NCBI RefSeq assembly: GCF_000499385.1
Contig: NW_013654718.1
Span: forward strand, 1-64,000
DNA from: Eimeria necatrix
Taxonomy: Eukaryota > Apicomplexa > Conoidasida > Eucoccidiorida > Eimeriidae
Direction: 5' to 3'
Length of the DNA stretch: 64,000 bases
Numbering within the stretch: the stretch's first letter is position 1; each line of letters starts with the position of its first letter. Below are positions 8,246-42,133 of the stretch, in pieces. The notes under the pieces are model-generated. The model was given only the letters and a program-made list of their open reading frames with translations. It did no database searches and was not told the DNA's origin. A program made the translations under genes and the position numbers.

Positions 8246-8612
8246 AGCAGCAGCATCTAACCCAGCAGCAGCATCCAGAGCAGCAGCAGCATCTAGAGCA
8301 GCAGCAGCTGCAGCAGCAGCGAGACTAGCAGCAGCAGCAGAATAGCTGGTCGGAGCCTCCGCTTAATACTTCTGTTTCTGGGGAAGTTCCCCAGCATCAG
8401 AGCAGCAAGTCGTGCAGCAGGAGCTGCTGCTGCTGCTGCTGCTGTTGCGGTTCTATAAGCAGTTCCTGCTGCTGTAACGGCCAGCGGCGCCGTCACAGCT
8501 CCGCTGCTGCAGCTGCTGCAGCTGCTGCAGCTGCTGCTGCTGCTATGCAGCAGCAGCAGCAGCAGCACCAAGATGTCGCCAAAGGTTCGCAGCTTGCAAG
8601 GCAACAAAAACA
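8246..8612. repeat. CAG/CTG tracts between the two R-segment genes
   Basis: CAG tracts on the + strand to about 8340, a short unique stretch 8342-8415, then CTG tracts and a (GCTGCA)n run at about 8503-8540. No gene is supported. This is the 3' end zone shared by the convergent thioredoxin-like and transporter genes. Confidence 0.7.
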
Positions 8613-8875
8613 ACTAATAAATTGTTGACGCAGCGGTCGCTGCTGCAGCACAAGCAGCAGCTGCTGCTGCAGCACAAGTAGCAATTGCTGCTAGTCGTGT
8701 TGCTGCTTTTCCGTTGTTCTGTTTATTGTGTTGCACCAAACTACTATACGGGATGCAATGCTTTGCTGCTGCTGCTGCTGCTGCTTGCCATTCTCTGCGG
8801 CTCTGCTGCTGCAGGCCCCAAACCCTTCCCCAATGGTACAGCATTGAGGGTTTAGGGTTTAGGGTTTAGGGTTAC
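8613..8875 (-). other. possible alternative last exon of the transporter
   Basis: After GAGAAA|GTAACCCTAAACCC at 8875, a phase-0 acceptor CCTGCAG near 8815 leads into an open, Ala-rich stretch that ends in TAA at 8614-8616. If spliced, the transporter would gain a second Ala-rich tail. If not spliced, it stops within the telomere-like repeat at 8852. Confidence 0.35.
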
Positions 8876-9287
8876 TTTCTCGAGGCCGCTGAGCTCGCTG
8901 TCGCTCGCTGCTGTGTTTACTGTTTCATTTGTAACAGCAGGAGGGTACAGTTTCGCGCTGCTGTCTACTTTTTGTTTGCTGCTGCTGCTGCCGCTGCTGC
9001 TGCTGCTGCTGCTGGGAGATACCAAGGAAGCTCCCTGCACTCGCTGTTCTGCTTGCACCAACTGCTGCTGCATTGCAACGGCTACTTTGAGTGCAAAGAT
9101 GCTGCTGCTGGTTTCCGCAGTTGCTGCTGCTTCCGTTGCTGCTGTTGCAGCTGCTGCTTCAGCTGCTGCTGCTCCTGCTGCTGCTCCGTCTTCAGCAGCA
9201 GACACAGCAGCGGCGCCTGCTGCAGCACCCACCTGCGACGGGGTGGAAAGCATGTCTTGCAGCTCGCCAGCTTCGGCAGCAGCAAGC

Positions 9288-9319
<32 letters not shown>

Positions 9320-11675
9320 TTGCTTCTCTCTTTGCATCCAGCTTTTAATGGTAAAAACGGCGAGAACAATTGCAGAAAAGACGATCAAGCCAGCCCCACA
9401 CAAGGAGGCTACATTGAAACCCTCGCCAATGATCAGCTGCTCGCATTCACGCAGCAGCAGCTCCCAAGGTTAGTGGTAGGGTTTAGGGTTTAGGGTTTAG
9501 GGTTTACGAGCCGGATGGCTCTGCACGAGTTGAGCAGCCACGGCGTTGGCTTTAGGCCTTGGAAACAAATATACACTGCGGGGCAACGCCAAAGCGCCGC
9601 ACCGAGGGTTTAGGGTTTAGTGTTTAGGGTTTAGGGTTTAGTGTTTAGGGTTTAGGGTTTACTTGGAAGGAGTAGCTGAAGACAGCATCCAGGTTTTGGA
9701 CAATGGCGATTGTCGCCGCAGACTCAAACTCTAGAGCGCTTATGAGGCACAGCTGCGCCCCCAGACCCAGACAGGGAAGCACTGCGAAAAAGCGTAAACC
9801 ACTACGGTTTAGGGTTTAGGGTTTGGCGCTTAGGGTTTAGGGTTTAGGGGTTTGAATCTGTCGACCTGGCAGCTGAAGATGTGGAAGCAGCAAGGACTCG
9901 CGGGAGTTCAGCAGGCAAGGGTTTACAGGCAGCTCCGCGTGGTCCCCCGGAGGGGGCGTGGAACCTCGGGTTTAGGGTTTAGGGTTTAGGGTTTAGGGTT
10001 TACGGATGAGGGCTGTCCACTCGGCGGGCTCGAGGCTTTTGAAGAAAGAAGCCGTAAATGGAGAAACGGATAGCACCAAAGGCAAAAAGAAAACAAGACC
10101 AAAAAACATCATAAACAAAACCGAAAGAATAGGGGGCCCCCTTGTGGCCACGTGCCGCCCCAGAACAAACGACACGCCGTCTGCCCTCCACAGCCACACA
10201 AACCCTAAACCCTAAACCCTCAGCCCTCAACCCTAAACCCTAATCCACATACAACCGCCCGAACCCTGTGTGGCCATTCAAAACCCTAGGATTCCACTCC
10301 CCTTCTACGGCCCAGCTTCACAGGTTTGAGACTGCATAGGAAATTTACTATCTAAACCCTAAACCCTAAGTCCTAGACCGTTTTGGCTAAAGCCTATGCT
10401 CCAACTCTCTTGTAAGCAACACTTTAAAAATGCTTTCTTCTTTTGGCAGGCCTGCTCAACCTCTGAGGGTTAAGGGTTTAGGGCTTAGGGTTTAGGGTTT
10501 AGGGTTTACGGAGAAAGGCGCCGACGACCAGCATGATAAAAGCCCCGCCCTTTGTAATGTTGTCAATCATTGCGATCTCACTTTTGGAGTTCTCGGCGAT
10601 AATTGCTGCAAACAAACCCTAAACCCTAAACCCTAAACCCTAAACCTCAAACCTCGTTCTGGGCCTGAAGCAGCACCATGGCTCCGTGATGTGCTAGGGT
10701 TTATATCGCCTCAAATAACAATCCAGGGCTTAACTTGTGCTAAGGACTAGTTTAGGGTTTAGGGTTTAGGGTTTACTGCCGCCCCCGAGGGTCGCGTGCA
10801 TGAGGCCCGGCTTCGCAATGAGCAGAATGCCAAGGCAGCAAACCAAAACCATACTCCATAACCTGCAGCAGCAACAGCAGCAGCAGCAGCAGAAAAGCAG
10901 CAGCAGCAGCAATACCGCCCCCGGAAGCACAAGTTGTCCATTCAGTTTCGTGTTTCTTCAACTCAAAATGTCTGCCCCTACCACAGCAGCAGCAGCAGCA
11001 GCAGCAGCAGCACGCACAGCAACGAAACCAAAAAAAGCGGAACCACAGACAGCAGTAGCAGCAACACAGATAGCAGCAGCAGCAGCAGCACAAACAGCAC
11101 CACAAGCAGCAGCGGCACAAATAGCACCACCAGCAGCAGCAGCCCAAACAGCACCAACAGCAGCAGCGGCACGAACAGTACCAACAGCAGCAGCAGCACA
11201 AACAGCCGCGGCAGCAGCAGCAGCACAAACAGCCGCGGCGGCAGCAGCAGCACAAACAGCCGCGGCAGCAGCAGCAGCACAAACAGCAGCAGCAGCACAA
11301 ACAGCAGCAGCAGCAGCAGCACAAACAGCAGGAGCAATATACCAGCCAAGTCCTTCCTTTTGAATTACAGCCCCAAGAAAAGCGGCCCAAATTGTCGCCG
11401 ACAGCCCCACAGCTGCTGCATCTCCCAGAGGCAGGCGCGAGAGAGCAACATAGTAGAGAGCTGAAGAACAAAAAGAAAAATTAAAAACAAAATTAAAAAC
11501 CCAGCAGCAGCAGCAGCCACTGCAGCAGCAGCAATACGAACAGCTCGGCCCGCAGAAACGGCACCAACAGCAGCAGCGGCATCAACACCCCAGTCGGCAG
11601 CAACAACAGTGACAGCAGCAACAGCAGCGACGGCAGCAGCAACAGCAGCAGCAGCAGGAACAGCAGCAGTAACAC

Positions 11676-11707
<32 letters not shown>

Positions 11708-11892
11708 GCAGCAGCAGGAACAGCAGCAGCAGACCGTGGCAGATAACGGCAATGATCCCTCTGGCGAGTAAAAATTTGGCGAGAGGTTCTTTGTAATGGA
11801 GATATTTGAAAGGGTTTATTTTGCGGACTTGACAAATAACGACACAGAGCACAGACTGAAATATAAACCGAAAAAGCAAGACCTGCAGCAGT

Positions 11893-11926
<34 letters not shown>

Positions 11927-12245
11927 CCGAAACAAAAGCAGCCAACCACGTCAAGAACAGCAGCAACTGGCCCCTCCCGAACTCTTTAAAACGCCTCCCG
12001 AAAAGTTCGCCATGAGATTGGGGTGCCCCTGGGGGGTTAGGGTTTAGGGTTTAGGGTTTAGGGTTTACGTTGAGTATAGGGAGCCCGGCCGAACAAACCA
12101 CCTTTGTGAGCACCCCAGTGCAAGAGTAAAGAAAAGCCCCAATTGCTGACAGCAGAATTCCTTTAGAAGCAGCGCAGCAGAGAGACACGCGGCTGCTACG
12201 CTGCTGCTGCAGCGGAGACAGCCGCTGCAGTGCCGATGATATCAT
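8852..12245 (-). CDS. drug/metabolite (EamA-like) transporter, 10 membrane spans
   Basis: Exons on the - strand: 12245-12069, 11882-11735, 11460-11343, 10862-10777, 10605-10510, 10180-10004, 9781-9663 and 9436-8876, reading through to a stop at 8852-8854. Every junction is GT-AG with matching phase, giving about 501 residues. Ten hydrophobic spans are visible, from KGILLSAIGAFLYS through LLFRFIFQSVLC, LLARGIIAVICHALYYVAL, LPLGDAAAVGLSATIW, VLVCCLGILLIAKPG, GGAFIMLVVGAFL and SVLFMMFFGLVFFLP to LCGAGLIVFSAIVLAVF. The order and motifs (ARG before span 3, PLGDA, GILLIAKP) match the two-repeat EamA/DMT fold. The C-terminal tail is poly-Ala and poly-Ser and cytosolic by inference. Substrate is unknown. 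An alternative end splices at GTAACCCTAAACCC (8875) into the CTG-rich stretch ending at 8614. Confidence 0.82.
9437..9662 (-). repeat. transporter intron G: two telomere-like arrays, each preceded by a donor
   Basis: 226 nt. Starts GTAAACCCTAAACCC (array 9605-9662, with CACTAAA variants). A second GTAAACCCTAAACCC with four units begins at 9508, which would let 9509 to about 9571 act as an optional exon. The acceptor GAATGCGAGCAG lies after a CTG stretch. Phase 0 on both sides joins FSYSFQ to LIIGEGFNV. Confidence 0.8.
9782..10003 (-). repeat. transporter intron F: telomere-like donor
   Basis: 222 nt. Starts GTAAACCCTAAACCC with five units (9968-10003). A second array (9805-9851) is also in CCCTAAA sense and lies before the acceptor CTTTTTCGCAG. 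Here the two arrays are direct, not inverted. The split codon C+TG is restored. Confidence 0.82.
10181..10509 (-). repeat. transporter intron E: inverted telomere-like ends
   Basis: 329 nt. Starts GTAAACCCTAAACCC with several units, some degenerate (10466-10509). Ends with TTTAGGG arrays (10201-10240) and acceptor GGAGGGCAG. A further short TTTAGGG-sense array lies inside at about 10354-10370. The C+AC split codon is restored, giving VVGAFL-HGVSFVLGR. Confidence 0.85.
10606..10776 (-). repeat. transporter intron D: inverted telomere-like ends
   Basis: 171 nt. The coding strand starts GTAAACCCTAAACCC (four units, 10748-10776) and ends with five TTTAGGG-type units followed by TTTGTTTGCAG. The two arrays are complementary and could pair to bring donor and acceptor together. 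The A+CA split codon is restored. Confidence 0.85.
10863..11342 (-). repeat. transporter intron C: 480-nt CTG/GCTGTTTGT repeat
   Basis: Donor GGCTG|GTATAT, acceptor GTTGCTGCTGCAG. Most of the intron is a (CTG)n-based repeat with regular TTTGT interruptions that, if translated, would give Ala-rich, Leu-rich or Cys-rich strings in the three frames. Removing it restores the contiguous EamA motif KEGLGW-LWSMVLVCC with a split TGG codon. Confidence 0.8.
11461..11734 (-). repeat. transporter intron B: CTG tract
   Basis: 274 nt, donor CACG|GTCTGC and acceptor TTTTTGTTCTTCAG. Nearly all of it is a (CTG)n tract with interruptions. Splicing joins AVICH to ALYYVALSRLPLGDA with a split GCT codon, so this repeat is intronic although all frames are open. 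Confidence 0.8.
11883..12068 (-). repeat. transporter intron A: telomere-like donor, CTG-type acceptor
   Basis: 186 nt. On the coding strand it begins GTAAACCCTAAACCC with about four units, then unique sequence, then a CTG tract ending CTACTGCTGCAG. Phase 0 on both sides joins GLPILN to VLLFRFIFQ, which is the expected spacing of EamA spans 1 and 2. Confidence 0.8.
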
Positions 12246-12350: not shown

Positions 12351-12365
12351 TGTACGTACACCTGG
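12351..12365. promoter_or_regulatory. palindromic TGTACGTACACCTGG motif upstream of the transporter
   Basis: A 15-bp string with palindromic core TGTACGTACA lies about 105 bp upstream of the transporter start codon. An identical 15-mer occurs at 1757-1771. Two exact copies 10.6 kb apart in non-repeat sequence suggest a protein-binding site, possibly for an ApiAP2 factor (inference). Confidence 0.3.
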
Positions 12366-16483: not shown

Positions 16484-19400
16484 TCATTTGGGGTTGAGCT
16501 CTCTTAGGCTTAAATTTTCCCGCTGAAGGGCCCTCCTTGGACTTACGGCGTCTCCCGAAACATTTTCTCCCTCCTCACCAATGAAGTACTCGTTTTCAAG
16601 AATCGTAACGCTAAAAGCCGAAAGTGCATATTTGAATGGTGATAACGCCTGTAACGGAGTAGCACCACTAGCAGCCATATCACTTCACTAAACTGAAGAT
16701 GTCCCCGTGGAAGGAAGTGCAAGAAGTGGGATTTTTTTCTTACCGCAAGGACTCTAAAAAAGGGGCTCAACTGGTCGATCTGTGTCATGAATCCAGAAAA
16801 TAGGGCCAGGACAACTTGGATGACTTGCGTCACCGCTAGTGCAACGACTTCCTGGAGAAACAGAAGCAGCGCAACGGTGACAAGTAAATTGGTGAATATC
16901 CCTTCTCTGCCATTGTGCCTTTGTCTTGGCTTCAAAAAGTGGGCGCATCACTGCTTTCTGCACATGGAGTTATACTGTTCAGGAAAGAACGTCCTTAGAT
17001 ACGATATGACGCATAGAAATACTCCTGTACGCAGCTTCCGTACAAAATCTATGGGAAAAGTGCCAGCAAGCTATTTTTTGAGGACTGCAAATTGGCGAAA
17101 AGCGGCCATTCGTGCGCCATTAGTCTCTTAGTGGTTCTTGGGCTGCAAAGCTTTCAAGCCTCTGCGCTGATGAACTGTTGGAAGGCTACTCGCGAAAAAT
17201 TGTCAAGCAATGAAGATGGCAAAAACAACACAGGAAGGTGAGCTCGCGCAGCTCATTAAAACGTCCAAAACGGTGCTATGATTTATGAATTACCAATTCG
17301 CTGACTTACATCGGTCACAACAGCAGATATAAAGTAGCCGTATGACTGGAGGGATAGAACTGACAGTAGCAAGATGCCCAACGACTGGAAAAATTTGGCT
17401 GCCGAGGAAGCTAAACCCATAATAAAAAATGTAATCCTAAAGACAGAAATGAGGCAAAAAATTGCGCATGAAATGAACCAATGTACTAATCGCATGACGT
17501 TCGTTAGACAACTGCAGCCTTACTGCAAATGGGTTGCACATATCCCTACATATGGCGGCCAAACTCACAAGTGAAAAATGATGGGGAAAACCAGAAATAA
17601 CACAGTGTCGCTAGTCGACGTTCCAATAAAATACACCCACATGCGAATAACACCTGCGCACCCAAAGCAGAATGTCCCATGTTTCCCCGTGACACTTTGC
17701 GCAGCTAGCTGCTGACGCAGTCGGATCCTAGGCAATGCAAGAAACTTGGAAACTACACGTCCAGTAAACTGAAAATGCGCGCCGTTCAAACGAATTCCAT
17801 GAAGCTTCACTAGTGCAACTACCTGTAGAATTCACTGCGATCCTACCTGACTCATATTCCCTTTGCGCTACCGGCCGCGCTTGAGGGAAAAGGCTTGCAA
17901 CGTTAAAAAGGCATGCAAGAGACTGAACAGAAAAGTCAACAGAAAAACAGAAAGCACCGAAAGTTCTTGTTTTATTATGGCCTGTCTTGGGTGGAATGTG
18001 GGCGGGCCTGGTGGTACCTGTGTTAAAACGATTTGGTAGCATGCGGAAACACGGTTCCAGGCATCTCCCAGGCTCCATCCCATCCTTCAGAAACACAAAC
18101 ACACTGTTCTTCAAAAGCGTCTGTTTGGCCTCCGCAGCTGGAACTTCGCCTGCTAAGCTCCTGTACTGTAAACTAAACAGGTCATGTTTTTGATGACGAA
18201 AATTGCAGAGGTTGTGAATTTGACTTACTGGAAGTATATGAATGAGGGTAACAGCGCTGTAATTAAAGTCGCAGCTAGACGAATATAGGATGTAGATGGG
18301 TCTCGCAGTCGCAAAAGCAGCCCTCGCTTTGTCAGGACCCAGGCCTCAGTAAAGGGTGAAATACGTTTGCTCTTTCGGGCATTTCTTGTAGCTCCTACAG
18401 ATGTTAGTGCATTCAAGACATTTTGCTGAGCCGTAACAGCATCAGCAATCCCATTATTGTTGGCATCAATGCTGACCCTGACGCAATTTTCCCTGCATTG
18501 TCCTTCTGCCTCGCCTTGGCCCCTGGATGTACACAATGCAGTCCAAATAGTGCTAATATTGGGTTTTGCGCTGCATGCACTCCGATGACATCCTACAGAC
18601 TTTCCATGCTGCTGGAGCTCGATTCCACTGTGCAGTAAACATATTTCATCAGCTATATGTTCACCGCGTCTACAGGAAAAAGCCCTGGCCGCAGCTGAGT
18701 GGTTATGCTGCCTCCTTCACACCTTGACAGTTGGGCTGGTATTTAGAGTCGACCACACTGTCTACCGTTCCCTTACACAGGCATTCCTTCCCCATCAGCT
18801 TCTTCAACTCTGTAGGTGTTTGGAGCTCCCTGCAGTAGACAGCATACATATCACCGCGCCTGGGCACAGTCTACTGCAGGCGGCTAGTGCGGCAGGGCTC
18901 GAAGTCCTTCACAGCAAAAGGACCCCACAAAACCTGAGAGGCAAGTAAAGTAAAAGGCTGCCTTGGAATGGCATTCTGCTGAGGCTCTAGCAAAATTATC
19001 AAGTCTTTCTATAGTAGCGCTCACCACGGGCTCGAGTATGGACGAAAAGGTGCAGCTGCGCTGCTTGAAGTTGTCTCTTCCTTGTTCTTCCTGCCCACAC
19101 AGCATGCAATAACCGAAGCGATATGCACATGCACGAAGCACAGAGCTGAGACTGACAAGATTATTGCACAGCACACCGTTGTCCATTTCACAAAATATTG
19201 ACGAATGAAAAGCGCTGCGGCCCTGCTACTAACTGGGCGCAAAATGTGGCACCCTTTCCCGTGAGGTGTACAGCTTCAAAGGATGCACCCTGGCTCCTGA
19301 GTGAGAGAGTAATACCACGCAAAGCAATGGCTGTGTACCGAAGAAGTATGTTGCAGTGCATAAAAGCAACAACAACTAACCCAGTTTTTGAGGAATGCTT

Positions 19401-21374
19401 GACCGTTGAGCTTCCATGCTTCAGCCCATTCATGTAGGCGCTTCGTCTTTGCTGTCATGTCAAGGTGCTGAAGGGATGTCACTTTCAGAATATATTCCGC
19501 TGGATTTGCATCAATTTCACAGGGCTTACCGCCCAAATGTTCCAGCCAGGCAATCGCTGCCAGCCGATCTCCATAGTATAAAACGCGGCCTTCTCCTAAT
19601 AAAAGCACCTACATCATATGTCCCACACCACAGAGCACCTAGATTGGAAGGTGCAAGCAGCAAGGGGGAACGTCAGGCAAAAAGAAGCAAGCAGATCAAT
19701 TCAAAGTAAGCCGCCCGACCTTGTTAAAAAGAGAGAAACAAGAACCACTAGGCTGGTGGATAGTGCACACAACTGTGCAACCAGCGGCCGCCAGAGTATA
19801 CAACTGATCACAGACGGCTTTGGCCATGAAGGAGTCCAAACCACTGGTGGGCTCGTCTGCAAAAACTACTGATGGGTTACTCAAAAGCTCGCTTGCAATG
19901 CAAAGCCGCTTCCTTTCGCCCCCCGAAATCGATCTGAGAACACAATGCGAGTATTTGGCACCCTGCTTCCTTAACCGCCCCGGTCAGTTGAACACAAGAC
20001 GCTCTGTGTATTTTATTTTTGTTTAAGCCAAAGAGATGCAGTTTGAGTACTCCGCGTACCCTCGGGCAGCCTCGTGTGGGCCTCCAATAAATGACTTTGA
20101 AATATGTGCCAGACCAAACGATTCCAACAAACACGACGTTGTACGCTTCACTTCCGTATTTGTGGTTCCTTTGGGCAGGCGGAGAGATGCCTGAAAAAGC
20201 ATGTATGTAACAGTCCCAAGGAATCCCTAAACAGAAGCTTAGTGGCACATTAGAAAACAGGAAAGCTCGGGAAACTCCCAAGGCTTCGTTAGAACAAACC
20301 ATTCACGGTTCACGCAAAACAGCACTGCCAGCGGCGATGTCCCGAAAAAAAAGGAGAAAATGTGACTTCAAACGCGTAAAAATCGAGACAAACTAATACT
20401 GAGCGGCATAAGCAGCCAAAATCGTGTGAGAGCATGTGCGTACTTGAAAGTGCAAATGCTCCTCCACCGTTAAGTATCCGAAAATGAGATCTTCTTGCTG
20501 AATAAAACAGCTGAGTTCTTTGCACAGCTGTGGTGTACATGGCCTGCCGTTCATGTCGACTTCCCCTCGCAAACCCGTCGAGACTCTGCCACTCAAGCAA
20601 TTCAACAGGGTTGACTTTCCGGCGCCACTGCTGCCCATCAAAGCAACTGCGTACAAATATACAGAGCAAAGAAATCAAGTGGCAGTTTGCTTGTCGTCCA
20701 AATTCAGTCAATAGACGCAGCTGCGGCTAGGTATGCCTTGCAGCCGAGGAGCCAAATGTGTTACCGAAATCTCCGGGATTAAAAACAAGCTCTATGCCAT
20801 CAAGACACAATATTTCCTTTCGAAGCTTTCGGCGTTTGTCAGCTTCGACATCGGCTTCGCCTGCAGTTGGCTTTCTGCGATCGCACAGCCTCTTTATTGC
20901 CCGGGAGATGAAGGTGCCGTCTTGTGGAATAGCGACTGAGTCTGCAGTGCAGAAGATTCAGAAATATGAGGAAAGTGGGGAGTGCACTAACCGCTCACTC
21001 AACCTGTGATGGGGGGTCGTCAAAAGGGGGGGCTGCCACATCAACGAATGGGCTTTTGCCTCACAGTTTAGGTCCTTGCAGTGAAGCACAACAGGCTGGA
21101 CGCCCTGTTCGTGGGTCTGTATCTGATTCTGTGGAAGTGAGCTATTCGACCTGGCCAAAGCACAAGGGTTTTCATTGGGCAGTGGAGGGGACAAAGATTG
21201 TCTGCAGTTTCCACCAGGTGGATTCATGGCCGGCGAAACTTTACCCGAGGTGCCGCCTGAAGGCAGAAAGAGACCTTTTTCTTCACCCAAGCTCCCTTCA
21301 TGGCCGATGCTTAGAGAAAGAGCAGCATTTGTTGTTTCCACTGGTAGCGTGTTGGCAGGGTATGGGGTTTGCAT
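16484..21374 (-). CDS. ABC transporter, ABCG (white/BCRP) half-transporter
   Basis: Nucleotide-binding domain first, then the membrane domain, the ABCG order. Confident exons with matching phases: 21374-20999, 20941-20765, 20646-20444, 20190-20060, 19933-19720, 19608-19381, 19090-18934, 18394-18229, 18007-17847, 16851-16744 and 16648-16484. One or two exons between 17847 and 17310 are not resolved (pieces RVVSKFLALPRI, VIRMWVYFIGTS and LQSYGYFISAVVTD are visible). Walker A is GSSGAGKST, the Q-loop region QQEDLIFGYLTVEEHLHFQ, the signature SISGGERKR, Walker B plus D-loop VVFADEPTSGLD, and the switch His in TIHQPSG. Membrane motifs include LRDPSTSYIRLAATL, REYESG, FSGFMTQ and LSPFKYALSAF...NEY. 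It should work as a dimer exporting lipids or xenobiotics (family knowledge). A GTAAGT at 16546 may splice to a further C-terminal exon. Confidence 0.9.
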
Positions 21375-35700: not shown

Positions 35701-38081
35701 ACCATAAAAAAAGCTTTTTAAAAGGTTTCAGGCGAGGCCCGCTGCCGCTCACTCCTTTACAGTGAGGGTCACTCCATCAGTCAATGCGACATCCCGGCTG
35801 TTCCGTGCGCGTGCACTATTTCTCACACTAGTGAGGAGCCGGGGATGCTTGTATTCACTGCAAACGTGCCGATAACTTCTCCGTGAATCCACCGACGCTT
35901 TTTGAGCAGCATTAAGTACGAGACTCATAGCCCAAGACCAGCTGTCCCATTCTCAGTGCATGGAGAGTGTCTCCAGTTGCACGAGTAGACCACTGACAAA
36001 TACGGCCGCATTGATTGAAGGCACACAACTCATACTTCATAAAGGGCTTGCTTTCTAAGTAGGGTAAGATTCATATGAGGAGATGGAGGAGCGATACAAC
36101 CACCAGATGGCCTTGCTGCAATTGCAAAGCCCAGCAGCAGTTATTAGATCCCCAAGCCCTGTGGCAGTGACAGCTGCAAGTCTTTCAATTGGGCTTAGCT
36201 TTCCTCCTAACATGACGCCGATGGATGCTGCGTAGCCTCTGATGACGCTCCTTAGTGGGAACCTCAGTAGTAGTTAGTAGTAACAGGAACAACTTTGCCT
36301 GAGCAGCGGGTGGCATCTCGTAGTGAGCTAATCTAGTTTTGCGTCCACTGGCCTCTCTCGCTCTGATTGCAGAGTCTGAAACCTGCCAGTACTTACTCAA
36401 AACGTCGTCAATAAACAAAAGGGGGTTCAAACAAAATCAGCGTAGGTCCGTTATCCCGAGGGACACATACATCTTTCTCGGCGCGTTTCTTCGTTCCTTC
36501 GTTACATTGCCGCCCGCTGTGGCTTCGGCAACTCCCCTTGCCAGACACAACAGCGGGGCCGAGGTTCAGACCACACTGGGCCTCATCACTTCATAACACA
36601 CTTTCTTTGTACGGTAATTGCTTCTGGTTATTGCATGAATCTACGCACCATTGATTTATATATGACCAAGAAAGCTATTTCTGGGCTGCAGGGCAGTTCC
36701 GCACACTACAATTTCCCTCTTCTCACAGCGGTTCACTCGTCACTCAAGGAGCATATGATCATTTTTCTCCTTTTTATAATCACTACGCCCTGGGTCCGCT
36801 GTGCCCCCATCTTACTTTCTAGCGCAACGTTGTTGGTGCCCAGCTGGGCTCTTGTGTTTTGCGTCCCGTGATATCTCTTTTGCGGAAGGCCTGGCTCGCA
36901 GTGTATCCCTCTAGTTATGATCCCTTCAGCAGACTGTACGAAAGTTTCAGTTCGCGCTACCGCTGGTCACTCAGGTCTACGTTTTTCCTTCCAGTTTGCT
37001 TTTTCACTTCCCGCCACAACAGATGATGGAATCATTACTTTGAATTGGAACTATACAATGAGGTAACTTCAATTGACATTAGAAACGCTACAGAGAAAGT
37101 CAAAACCCTCCGAGTTTTAAAATAGAATTTAGGTCCAACCAAGCGAAAGCGAATTAAGAACCATGCACCATATATGTAAATATATTTCCTACAATAACAA
37201 TCCTTGTTTTGTCCTAGTACTTTATGTTTCTTCTACGTGGTCATTGATCCCTCTCCTTGCTTTCTTTCAACTGTAGCTCAACCTAGATTGTTGGACACAT
37301 TCCAGACAGTCTTGGTTTGCAGCAGCGCGTTTCTAACAACTTTTGATTTTACTCACGCAAGCGCACACTGTTCTAGCCCTAAACTCTAGAGCGTCAATGC
37401 GTGTTTTATGTCACGCTGAGTGTAGTTCTTTTGCGCAGCTTGTGTCGGCCGCTATACGCAGAACCGCAACGCTAAATTCATAGACGCTTAATCCTGAACC
37501 CTGAAGGTTAAACCCTATGCCCTCAGACGCGCTCGTGCAGGGGACAATCGCTCGGCAGAATTCAAATTTTTTGCCACATGAAAGCTATCCAGTTATTTAA
37601 TGCCCCACCCCGCACTGTTTTAGCTTATCCCCTTCTGCTTTGCTTTTGTCATCAACTCGCCGCTTACTTTTTCCCCACTTTTCTCAAATTACTTCGTTCA
37701 ATTTAAGACTTGTAATCATACGTTGTGTAGTGCTATATTTGTTTTTTGTTCGTCCTATTCAATTGTCTCACATTTCATTCCCGTGCAGTCTTGCATGATA
37801 AATGCACAATTCGTGTGGTGTACGCCTCTACATGAAGCGCGTCTGCGGAAGCCCGTGCACTTAGCCACCTAACGGGTGGGTACGTGAGCGTATGTTTTCA
37901 CGATCTCGCCCGTTCCACTCCTTCGCGCAGCTGGCGCCTGCCTGTGGCCTCCGAGCTAGCAGCGAATCTGATCCATACTACCCGTTGACAGAATTCAACA
38001 ACAGTAATGAATACTGCACGGTGAAAACTAGGAAGCTAAGTACACAGGAATAGTGTCTTGGAGCGTGTGAGTAAACAAGGC
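32733..38081. other. 5.3 kb without a recognised gene
   Basis: Short open frames only. The longest (34740-35318, - strand, 192 codons) has mixed composition and no recognisable domain, so it is noted but not called. A 76-bp-spaced direct repeat lies at 34415-34533. The last part, next to the retroelement, may include an eroded long terminal repeat that I could not define. Confidence 0.5.
34415..34533. repeat. direct repeat, period 76 bp
   Basis: TGACGC(C/T)TACTGGCTCC followed by TTTCCTCTCTTTTGGTTT and CCCGCCC occurs at 34415-34457 and again at 34491-34533. The copies are nearly identical over about 42 bp, with an unrelated spacer between them. Confidence 0.88.
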
Positions 38082-38294
38082 TTACCAGTGGCAGTTGACC
38101 GCTCCGCCGAAGCATCTGGCGTTGCCGTAGAGCAAGGCGGGGAAGTTAGTTAGATATTCACCAGGATTTCTCGTAGCCTGATCCTCAGGGAAGCCCCTCC
38201 ACTTTACTCGGTACTGACTGACGTTGTTTGTACCCCTCCTATTCAGGGCACAATTAAATTCTTCTGGTACGCGTCTGGGACTGGAGTCTAACAA
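38082..38294 (-). pseudogene. chromodomain remnant of the retroelement
   Basis: Reads VSQYRVKWRGFPEDQATRNP with EYLTNFPALL after it, matching the chromodomain pattern YLVKWKGYPxxxxTWEPxxxLxNxxxLL. The Trp of TWEP is lost. It lies in the position expected for the integrase C-terminal chromodomain that directs chromoviruses to heterochromatin. Confidence 0.75.
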
Positions 38295-38394
38295 AAAATG
38301 GCTGCCCCTTTCGCGACCATGTGAGTGTCGGGGGACAGTCTGGCACGAATTGGGGAAAATGGAAAAGATTCATATCAAGATTGTGCTATAGAAG

Positions 38395-38640
38395 CTCTAA
38401 ACAGTATACCACACTGCAGAAACGCTTTCTAATAGTAAAGGGGCCGTAGGAAATAGGTTCGAACTTGGTGCATATACAAAAGGTGTGCCACAGTGCCAAT
38501 GCGCTGTGTGGTAGTGGAGGAGCCGCAGGAACAAAGCTCGAACTAGTGAGAGCGCGTTAGCGTTTATTAATAGCCATGCCGTGTCACCTATGATACACTC
38601 GATGGCACCACGTTTGGTGTCAGCGTACGCCTTTCGTTGT
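38395..38640. repeat. degenerate short repeats within the retroelement
   Basis: GCCGTAGGAAATAGGTTCGAACTTG (about 38444) recurs as GCCGCAGGAACAAAGCTCGAACTAG (about 38522), with similar surroundings (GTGCCAATGCGCTGTG). It looks like an old ~78-bp tandem duplication lying between integrase and chromodomain remnants. Confidence 0.55.
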
Positions 38641-38769
38641 CACTTTGCTCGGCCAACATAACTCTACTAAGCCCGCAGACAGAGTCGCTCGAACAGTTTG
38701 GCCATTTAGAGTGTAAGGGTCAGCGCCCAAAAACTAACAGTACCGAGGCTGGTTACATACGGTTCAGGC

Positions 38770-39794
38770 TTAACATGATTTCAGGGGGAGAGAGTTTGTG
38801 TGAAGAGTGGCCGGCTGTATCGTATGCCAGTTCGAGAGCGGGGAGAAGTTCTTGCTCTTGCTCATCATACTGAATGAAAGTGAGAAGCAGCCGGAGCGAA
38901 GTACGAAACAGAGTACAGTTAACTCGTCCCGTTTGTCCATCGTTCTCAAAGTGATAGGCAGAGAATGTGGAGAACTTGATGCTGAACCGGTTGCAGGTCT
39001 GTTGCCATAATTCGGACTGAAAACGAGGACATCTTTTGGAATAAATACATAAGGGAACCTATGGTAGCGAGTGAAACGGCTTACTTCGTTCTCTTCACGC
39101 ACGCCCGGCCAAGATGTGCTCACTTCTCGAAAATAAAATGGCTCACTTGAATGCCACGACGGCGGCATCATTGGCAACCTGCACTCCCTGCCAGTTTTGG
39201 GCAAGAACCTCAACGTTGTCGGCTGCTGCCGGCTGAAGTTAGCCATTTTGCGTGAATAAACAACGAACACAGTATTGGAATCATTGCTGGGGACTGTGAA
39301 AGGCAGACGAGGCGCCAGGTTTGGAATCAAGTGGCTCCAACGAAGAAAGGGAATGACTGCTTGCTGAAGGAATTCTGCAGGCATCTGATTGATTTGGAGA
39401 TACAGCGAACGCAGGATTCCACGTATGCTGCAGTATAGTGACGAATGCCCCGCCAATAGTAATGCTTGCTGACGGTAAGGAATGTCCGCTTTTGTATGCG
39501 GTGGGCAGCTGCAACGTGATTCTTGTGATTGCAGAGCACGTGCGTAAGGAATTCAAGTGGGTTTGATCCACAGATTCGCCGCATGCTGTGAATATGTTTG
39601 GACAAAAGAGTGCCGTTTTTGCTGTAATAAGTGCTGACGTAAGCGATGCAAGAGACTGCAGTGCTGCAAGAGGTTCTGTTGCGCGTGACTGGGAAGCTCC
39701 GCAAGGGAAAGAATGTGTGCAACGCTTGTGGAACGAAGGATGCTGGCATTTGGGGTGTCGTGCGTAAGAAAAACTTAAGGCGGTTTCCCGCCAA
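38770..39794 (-). pseudogene. integrase remnant (zinc finger and core)
   Basis: At about 39410-39560 the H2C2 zinc-binding domain is visible (HKNHVAAAHRI ... YYWRGI ... YVESCVRCIS). The core near 38905-39045 reads YSKRCPRFQSELW and SAYHFENDGQTGRVN, matching SDRDxxFxSxFW and AYHPQTDGQTER; the catalytic Asp of SDRD is Lys here. The C-terminal part near 38770-38860 reads LELAYDTAGHSSHKLSPPEI. The pieces lie in at least two frames. Confidence 0.78.
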
Positions 39795-39994
39795 GGTACT
39801 ACCAAGTTACACGAAGCCCTGCCGCTGCGGTCTCTCTATACCCTGCGTGACTTCCCCGAGTTGTAAATTGGTTACTGACGTTTGGTCAAGAGCGCTAATG
39901 AAGTTATCTCGCCTAGAGTCACTGCAGCCTCAGAGACGCCACTGGTAGCAGACAAGGAAGGCTACCGTAGACTTCGAGACAGCTCATCACCCAA

Positions 39995-40210
39995 TTATAT
40001 GTACCTTGCAGGCGTGTTATTATGAGAACTTGAGATTCCACTAGAAAACTTAGCCAACGAGTGGTAAGACCACGTAAAGGCTTTGACGCTGTTTGCTGCT
40101 GCAAGTGAGAGCCTTCTGGTCGATATACGCGAAGCCTTAGCGGCGCGTAGCAAGTTAAACCACTTGTTCAGAGCGGCGATTAAGGCGAGGAGCTCTTCGT
40201 CGAATGGCAA
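39995..40210 (-). pseudogene. Ty3-type RNase H remnant
   Basis: Starts PFDEELLALIAALNKW, the conserved start of the Ty3/Gypsy RNase H domain (ExELLAI..AL.KW), followed by a degenerate equivalent of the TDH.SL segment (RISTRRLSLAA) and of the RW...L..F...I stretch. It ends without the expected AD.LSR motif. Non-functional by inspection. Confidence 0.65.
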
Positions 40211-40569
40211 ATTTTTGTGCTACACGAGGTCAATTCCTCGGCTGAGGAGGCAAATCGTTTTGTGTGGTCGATGGAGAACTGAACCCGTTGCATATCGTGG
40301 TGCGCCGATATAGAACTCGAAGGGCTTTGTAGTGTCGGATTTGTGAGGCCGTATACTCGATTAAGGCATTATCCAGCGTGTGCGTTAAAGTTCTGTCCAT
40401 TGAGAATGGATGCCTTTGTCTGTGAAGTAAACAGGTGGGCGTATGATGTCTTCAAAGCCAGGACCCACGAACATGCGATAGTAGCATTAGGAAGTCACCC
40501 TACTTGTGTCTTGTTAGTCAGCAACCCCCGAGCAGCTGAGCAGCGTATACCTTGTCAGCGGCCGGCTTG

Positions 40570-41691
40570 ATATCTTTAAACCTGATGGTATAGTTGAGGC
40601 AAGTGAAATCGTGCTTACGAAATTTGCGCTTACGGAACATGGGAACTAGTTGATGCTTGATGAAGACGCTGAGCACCTTCTGCAGAAAATAAACACTGCG
40701 GGGAGAGCGGAATTATAAATCAATGCATTGCCAAGGTACGCAGAGACACACTGGTCTAGCAAAGGGTGGAACTGAGTGTTGATACTTGGATGAGAGATAG
40801 CCCGGGGCGCCCTTGAGATAATATCGCGCAGCTCTTTGTTCTCAAGGGCGCCGAAGAGCCCCACGGCTGAGACAGGCGCACTCTTTCGCCAGTCTTCCTT
40901 GGCCATGCTACTTTGGTGAAAACAAACTTTGACACCATACGTATAGAAATATGTAGCTCTTTCCAGATTTCCCAGACCAGCTTGAACAGAACGTAGAGGA
41001 GGCGTTGAATGCCTGATAGTTGGCGAGCATGCCGCCTAAAGCGTCTTTGCTTTTGTTAAACATGATACTCGGAGCACAGTTAAGGAACTAAGTCGGGCCC
41101 ACTTATCCATTAGCGGCAACTTCGATATCTGTTACTTGTGCAGTGCTACACATTCCATTGGCACCCTGCGTATCGGGGCCTGCTCGGGAGCTTGTCTGGC
41201 ACTAGTTGGCTGCGATAGTCATGTTGATGCTTTGTTGGCTGCCCTGCACATAAACTATTTGCGGGCTTTGCTTGATGTTCTTTTAGCAACTAGAGTCTTT
41301 GCAGGGGTGTCCTCAGGCGTTATCTGCTCATCGAAGTGCATCTATGGATGGTGGCGCAGGGCTAAGGCTACCCTTGCTTGGTAGTCTTTCCTTGCAGATA
41401 GGCATGAAGTGGGAAACGCGACTAGAACGTAAGGGTGAAGTTGCACTGTTCTGCAGATGCACACGGGGGCGGTCCTTGACACTCCCTACGCAAGTGGATA
41501 CTGGTCAACTTCCTCACACCCGGTAACGCCGTGATACTGTTGAGCTCCCGCAGTGCACTCGGTAGGTGTGTTGTATCAGCCTGAGCCTCGCGCAGGAGCT
41601 CCTTCACGAGGAGCCTGAAATTAGCTCTGCGGTTAGCCTTGAAGCGTTTTTGAATGTAACGAAGAAGCCTAGTAGCCTTTGCTGTAGACAC
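40570..41691 (-). pseudogene. reverse transcriptase remnant
   Basis: The region 40690-40780 reads LLDQCVSAYLGNALIYNS, aligning with the RT motif that normally contains Tyr-x-Asp-Asp. Here the two aspartates are Gly-Asn. The following thumb part (QKVLSVFIKHQLVPMFRKRK at 40640-40690) is in another frame. The upstream part near 41422-41691 reads RELNSITALPGVRKL, a plausible start of the RT domain. Frames are broken in several places. Confidence 0.7.
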
Positions 41692-41791
41692 GTGGGAGCT
41701 ATTGGGGCATCACGTTGCAGGCATGCTCAGCTGAGGTCCGTAACCGCGCATTCAGTGGCTCTTTGTGCTGCTTTTTTGCCTCGTGTGTTGG

Positions 41792-42133
41792 TTAGTAGAT
41801 AGCTATACACGTTCCAAGCTCATCGGGCTGAGAGTACCGGGGCATCCTATGGTCCAATAGCCAACCTAGCCCTAGGAAAATGTCACAAGCTGCCGGTCCA
41901 CGAGGAAATTCTCCGCTTCCACAACGCATGCACAGCACCGTCACCTCGCGGCCGGTATGCAGAAGCTGTCCATTGGCAACAGTGAAACGGCAGGTCTCGT
42001 GTAGGCGACGTACCTGCAGCCCCAGCAGCTCGCATTTGATTGGGCGGATGAAACTGTGCGATGTACTTCTGTCTAGAAGAGCATAGCACTCATGCCCGAC
42101 AACCTCGAAGACAAGCACAGCTGTCTTTGCCAC
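41792..42133 (-). pseudogene. retroviral-type aspartic protease remnant
   Basis: The flap-side and active-site pattern is visible as CYALLDRSTSHSFIR, then FTVANGQLL and CDIFLGLGWLLDHRMP, matching retropepsin-like proteases of Ty3/Gypsy elements (LLDxGAxxSFI ... DxILGxDWL). The catalytic D-S/T-G is changed to D-R-S and the GxDW motif to GLGW, so it is not expected to be active. Confidence 0.75.

Follow-up and report, generated by a model that had tools for sequence, protein, structure and literature searches.

Telomere-like heptamer arrays at the 5' splice sites of introns in Eimeria necatrix genes

In the apicomplexan parasite Eimeria necatrix, arrays of the telomere-like heptamer TTTAGGG/CCCTAAA that lie within genes probably sit in introns, flush with the 5' splice site, and sometimes the array's opening bases themselves serve as the donor (GT-AAACCC...). 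The arrangement was analyzed in a gene for an EamA-type transporter, located in a 64-kb stretch of contig NW_013654718.1 (positions 1 to 64,000, hereafter the window), and in three further genes. Its basis is computed: the placement of arrays in the introns of the four genes, an excess of G before the array string TAAACCCTAAACCC, arrays before acceptors that mostly read TTTAGGG in the direction of transcription (G-sense), and a peak, at intron size, of pairs in which an array reading CCCTAAA (C-sense) is followed by a G-sense one. In our reading, the arrangement is a genuine property of intron ends. It would give a definite place in genes to a telomere-type repeat found throughout a group of livestock parasites, and would tie repeat turnover to splice-site identity. 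The introns also form a natural set for assaying the effect of end pairing on splicing, and they are a caution for gene finders: open frames in the arrays mislead exon prediction.

Array placement in the introns of four genes

The intron set (n = 33) comprised 8 introns of the transporter gene, 15 of a KRI1 homologue, 5 of a formin 1 homologue (FRM1; FH2 part) and 5 of DBR1, the lariat debranching enzyme. An intron was counted as array-bearing if it held a perfect run of the heptamer spanning 14 nucleotides (nt) or more, and an array as donor-side if it started no more than 18 nt from the donor. Arrays were carried by 16 of the 33 introns, and in 15 of these 16 an array started on the donor side, against a mean of 2.64 and a maximum of 9 under uniform placement (20,000 trials). 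With the transporter left out, donor-side starts were found in 9 of 10 array-bearing introns (null mean 1.52, maximum 7). The sole exception was DBR1 intron 4 (DBR1_4), whose last array lies 6 nt from the acceptor. These data support, in the transporter and three other aligned genes, the proposal of the initial annotation that the arrays have a definite place at intron 5' ends. Each frame of a heptamer array contains a stop, so arrays in these genes are expected within introns.

KRI1, FRM1 and DBR1 were modelled by spliced alignment, and all 33 introns are GT-AG, from an aligner that permitted no other ends. The KRI1 query was a composite of two relatives, introns 1-3 depending on the more distant one; the FRM1 query consisted of PDB formin residues; the DBR1 query was made of residues from its own exons, with PDB debranching enzymes as the check on continuity and one acceptor placed manually. 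KRI1 and DBR1 were reached via exons near arrays, and FRM1 via a general list of open reading frames (ORFs).

The transporter gene occupies 12245-8876 on the minus strand as eight exons and seven predicted GT-AG introns in a single open frame. The spliced protein matches PF00892 (EamA-like transporter) with E = 2.3e-23 and 83.4 bits, against a curated cut-off of 28.2. A protein search found 10 relatives, among which the homologue P0001 (74% identity, 100% of the query) aligned ungapped across all seven junctions, an independent check on them. In the rebuilt model the intron phases (0,1,2,1,1,1,0) agree at every junction, as the initial annotation had stated. P0005, an annotated E. tenella protein that matches 56% of the query at 99% identity, begins within exon 4, spans junctions D-G and continues with SGLEK followed directly by LRTFGD, which corresponds to an eighth junction with donor GTAACCCTAAACCC at 8875 and intron end at 8593. 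The eighth donor that had been suggested at 8875 is thus borne out within the limits of evidence from an annotated protein. The model is as follows.

12069..12245, minus strand: exon 1, ending in phase 0; homologue alignment
11883..12068, minus strand: intron A, donor GTAAACCCTAAACCC with C-sense array
11735..11882, minus strand: exon 2; homologue alignment
11461..11734, minus strand: intron B, donor GTCTGC (CTG repeat); free of telomere-like arrays
11343..11460, minus strand: exon 3; homologue alignment
10863..11342, minus strand: intron C, donor GTATAT; free of telomere-like arrays
10777..10862, minus strand: exon 4; homologue alignment
10606..10776, minus strand: intron D, donor GTAAACCCTAAACCC; C-sense array at the donor, G-sense array 8 nt from the acceptor; predicted terminal hairpin
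10510..10605, minus strand: exon 5; homologue alignment
10181..10509, minus strand: intron E, donor GTAAACCCTAAACCC with C-sense array; G-sense arrays both in the interior and 19 nt from the acceptor; 39 predicted end-to-end pairs
10004..10180, minus strand: exon 6; homologue alignment
9782..10003, minus strand: intron F, donor GTAAACCCTAAACCC; C-sense arrays at the donor and 24 nt from the acceptor
9663..9781, minus strand: exon 7; homologue alignment
9437..9662, minus strand: intron G, donor GTAAACCCTAAACCC with C-sense array; an internal GTAAACCCTAAACCC at 9507-9493 is unused in the model
8876..9436, minus strand: exon 8, with homopolymeric Ala/Ser stretches
8593..8875, minus strand: intron H, donor GTAACCCTAAACCC, acceptor TTGCAAG; junction according to E. 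tenella P0005

The window holds six exact copies of GTAAACCCTAAACCC, all on the minus strand (12068-12054, 10776-10762, 10509-10495, 10003-9989, 9662-9648 and 9507-9493). The first five are the opening bases of introns A, D, E, F and G, and the recount and the rebuilt model therefore agree with the initial annotation that five of the seven introns open with the exact repeat-donor string. A candidate exon at 9575-9508, with the sixth copy (9507) as donor, was rejected: in the reading frame imposed by exon 7 it contains a stop.

The genome-wide search covered the assembly of 44,016,600 bases in 1,148 contigs, and its pattern counts are raw matches; those of the base before TAAACCCTAAACCC include copies within degenerate arrays. 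Leaving aside the C of a running array, the base before TAAACCCTAAACCC was G 1,715 times (886 + 829) and A or T 881 times (401 + 480), so that G occurred 3.9 times as often as the mean of A and T. We know of no mutational reason for this excess. Further, 20 GTAAACCC sites were taken one per contig with their surroundings unseen; contigs already represented in the close-reading sample (264 kb, namely the window and loci L009-L028) were passed over, and for a few contigs the site taken came later in the list. Downstream sequence was read for the 8 sites with the clearest upstream frame, and 7 of these gave a readable exon pair (L030, L031, L033, L034, L039, L045 and L048). The L039 pair encodes an IWS1-like segment with a TFIIS helical bundle domain that aligns to IWS1 across the junction; at L033 the upstream exon is PIP5K-like and the acceptor is a candidate.

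The 264-kb sample contains 129 array clusters, in accordance with the interstitial status of the repeats, and some of its stretches begin at a contig start. In an annotation-free test at these 129 clusters and three subsets, the open frame was better on the left in 26-55 cases and on the right in 11-37 (P 0.029-0.050), a weak signal in which GT counts are confounded by degenerate units. A self-trained codon model was dropped; it drifted to GC-rich sequence and gave known exons negative scores.

It might be supposed that the arrays are tolerated repeats that accumulate anywhere in introns of repeat-rich regions, the donor pattern reflecting either chance in a single gene or local duplication. 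The genome is indeed full of the repeat (24,043 + 24,561 overlapping 17-mers), same-orientation clusters are common, and 4 of the 20 sampled GTAAACCC sites (L029, L035, L043 and L044) are without an upstream exon. However, donor adjacency occurs again in KRI1, FRM1 and DBR1, well above its null expectation, and the G excess is genome-wide. Local duplication fails as an explanation because the intron bodies are unrelated: after masking and dust filtering, only 2 of 741 pairs among 39 introns matched, over 30 and 43 nt. Blast of the bodies without dust gave 90 matches, and all 25 of those examined were between KRI1 introns. We regard this explanation as improbable.

Orientation and pairing of the arrays

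In the four genes, donor-side arrays were C-sense in 11 introns and G-sense in 4 (KRI1_6, KRI1_8, FRM1_1 and DBR1_3). Arrays within 25 nt of the acceptor were G-sense in 6 cases and C-sense in 1, and without the transporter in 4 and 0, respectively. The association of sense with intron end gave a Fisher P of 0.020 for the four genes and 0.10 without the transporter. In addition, the last array before the acceptor was G-sense at 6 of the 7 readable GTAAACCC loci.

Pairs were counted genome-wide as GTAAACCCTAAACCC followed by GGGTTTAGGGTTTG (opposite orientation) or by its reverse complement CAAACCCTAAACCC (same orientation), two strings of equal genome frequency. The spacing of 61-121 nt was tested first, followed by two longer ones. 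Opposite and same partners numbered 72 and 157 at 61-121 nt, 251 and 181 at 121-181 nt, and 145 and 96 at 181-241 nt. The shift between the first two spacings had P = 8e-11, on raw matches that are partly non-independent; among the matches listed at 121-181 nt, about 11 same-orientation and 2 opposite-orientation starts were repeated. These data indicate that the opposite-orientation partner is most frequent at intron-size spacing. The median intron of E. falciformis is given as 183 nt in the consulted part of its description (PMC4287421). The orientation of neighbouring arrays in the 264-kb sample was not decisive.

Predicted folds of transporter intron D (-71.5 kcal/mol, z -6.1) and KRI1 intron 4 (-116.6 kcal/mol, z -10.8) have stems that close the intron ends. 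Among 38 introns folded, nine with a C-then-G arrangement (EamA_D, EamA_E, KRI1_4, L030, L031, L033, L034, L039 and L048) had 24-53 predicted pairs between their first and last 60 nt, and L045 had none. Introns lacking this arrangement also showed predicted end-to-end pairs (KRI1_9, 33; FRM1_1, 37; DBR1_3, 43; DBR1_4, 41), so end pairing alone is not diagnostic.

Such folds raise the question of whether hairpin introns are selected, with paired C- and G-sense end arrays that join the splice sites, mask the AG and GT steps contained in the G-sense array and form part of the splicing signal. The G-sense majority at acceptors, both in the four genes and at the readable GTAAACCC loci, the peak of opposite partners at intron size and the predicted terminal stems all point this way. 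Nevertheless, in the four genes the majority of array-bearing introns carry arrays only at one end or only in one sense, neither the L045 fold nor the pairing of introns without C-then-G arrays fits, and a donor inside a stem could hinder U1 binding. Selection of this kind appears rather unlikely to us. A related and slightly less doubtful proposal, which we make tentatively, is a class of spliceosomal introns built at both ends from complementary telomere-like arrays, the C-sense one located at the donor or within it and the G-sense one a few bases ahead of the acceptor. In these introns a stem of 24-53 bp would pair the splice sites, and turnover of telomere repeats would generate new intron ends. 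At most, roughly one seventh of the GTAAACCC sites would belong to such a class (251 of 1,715, counting raw matches at 121-181 nt).

Several observations weigh against placing the arrays at intron 5' ends as a general feature, or against the pairing of intron ends. KRI1 and DBR1 were noticed via exons near arrays, so the share of array-bearing introns is inflated; position within the intron is less affected by gene choice, yet KRI1 introns 1, 4 and 13 had been seen before alignment. The junctions rest on protein homology and on GT-AG ends, the only ones that the aligner permitted, with KRI1 introns 1-3 resting on the composite query and DBR1 checked only by PDB alignment. For 13 of the 20 sampled GTAAACCC sites no exon pair was read, and in view of these sites, including the four without an upstream exon, many of the 1,715 occurrences probably do not serve as donors. 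Closeness to the acceptor, taken by itself, is a weak signal, with arrays within 18 nt of it in 5 of 16 introns (P = 0.11), or in 4 of 10 without the transporter (P = 0.047). CTG repeats likewise begin at donors. Donor orientation is not fixed: outside the transporter, 5 donor arrays are C-sense and 4 G-sense. The earlier claim that the arrays always have the same orientation relative to transcription consequently does not extend beyond the transporter, and a single orientation is a property of that gene. The C-then-G arrangement is present in only 3 of the 16 array-bearing introns (EamA_D, EamA_E and KRI1_4). Same-orientation partners predominate at 61-121 nt, contrary to the hairpin reading, and at L045 the last long array is C-sense, with a single G-sense unit before the acceptor.

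Array edges and the origin of array-bearing introns

The arrays have a preferred edge register, as if from a templated end. Among perfect runs of at least 21 nt in the 264-kb sample, 76 of 134 begin AAACCCT, and 57 of these are preceded by C. The commonest array edge is C before AAACCCT (62 of 138 clusters); G before TAAACCC, the register of GTAAACCC, is a minority among array edges (15 of 138). Other donors join the array via a few bases (GTACGC, GTAGC, GTACC or GTCCGC). The initial annotation had derived the donor from the repeat by one change, the C of CTAAAC to G; given the rarity of that edge and the extra bases at other donors, this is not supported as a general route.

We infer that arrays originate and expand in units of a full heptamer from the preferred edge. 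Exons would purge them, owing to the stop in each array frame, and splice sites would mark the limit of purging. A GT at the array edge would then be kept because it is spliced, so that array edge and donor become one sequence. Where a complementary array stands at the acceptor end, the intron could close as a stem with the donor beside the acceptor, and such closure would render the arrays tolerable or useful for splicing.

Alternatively, arrays might have been inserted in exons and converted to introns, with splice sites that coincided with the array edges at the outset. The flush position of arrays against splice sites, and runs that begin AAACCCT well above expectation, as from a templated end, are consistent with such intron gain. 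On the other hand, KRI1 introns 1 and 11, both array-bearing, have at their ends an AT-rich tract like that of array-free introns, and no common intron bodies were found. Moreover, the words common to both junctions in 16 introns were 0-4 nt long and formed no consistent pattern of target-site duplication. Intron gain by this route is, in our judgement, quite unlikely. The arrays may have grown in old introns, may have created new ones or may be retained because their paired ends aid splicing.

Other repeats also occur at intron ends. A dispersed palindrome, GGTGTACGTACACC (for example at 20093, 19587 and 6903 of contig C1, L009-L011, and at 12352 and 1758 of the window), is found there, and GTACGTAC occurs 32 times in 264 kb. 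The donor of DBR1 introns 4 and 5 is GTACGTACACC, directly after the exon, and the acceptor of KRI1 intron 12 is GGTGTACGTACAG, directly before the next exon. Sense-strand CTG repeats start at or beside donors at 11734-11461 of the window and in KRI1_3, KRI1_9, FRM1_5 and DBR1_2. Runs of at least 3 units occur in 13 of 33 introns for CTG and in 4 of 33 for CAG, and exons carry CAG-type (Ala/Gln/Ser) repeats. Elsewhere in the window, ORF fragments at 38000-41900 (minus strand) resemble, on visual inspection, a decayed retroelement that includes a chromodomain-like segment, and ORFs at 19279-20700 (minus strand) have, by eye, ABC-transporter signatures, with no telomere-like arrays found there. 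In L026 the arrays are very densely packed, run in both orientations and have flanks that recur, so that the locus looks subtelomeric.

Comparison with known systems

UAGGG-type intronic splicing elements are bound by hnRNP A1. Sense TTTAGGG near acceptors contains UAGGG, whereas the donor arrays described here are mostly the complementary CCCUAAA. In the nonconventional introns of Euglena, complementary ends bring the splice sites together. Some of the introns described here are alike in their complementary ends but have an ordinary GT...AG, the only kind that the aligner permitted, beside a simple repeat.

No recognisable description of telomere-like arrays at splice donors was found in the full-text literature searched, which did not cover the 2007 chromosome 1 and 2014 multi-species genome papers. 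In the accessible parts of three Eimeria studies, the heptamer is nearly absent from coding sequence and its position in introns is not described (PMC4287421, PMC7564333, PMC9131526). The interstitial AAACCCT/TTTAGGG repeats of these reports resemble ours in the heptamer itself, in their spread through repeat-rich regions and in their exclusion from coding sequence; unlike here, those parts contain no placement at splice donors and no inverted pairs at intron ends. Repeats, telomeres or introns, rather than the place of the repeats in introns, are mentioned in the portions consulted of PMC4413850, PMC3310773 and PMC10739835.

Introner elements of Amoebophrya, also an alveolate parasite, have inverted repeats of 8-20 nt at both intron ends, for which a fold that joins the exons has been proposed, according to the part of that report consulted (PMC7789003). 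In contrast, where inverted arms are present here (3 of the 16 array-bearing introns of the four genes) they are telomere-like arrays, and the introns have GT-AG ends, unrelated bodies and no consistent direct repeats at their junctions. With bodies unrelated among 39 introns and no consistent target-site duplication in 16, they are not introners in the usual sense. The Amoebophrya introners with their inverted repeats are the nearest published parallel found (PMC7789003).

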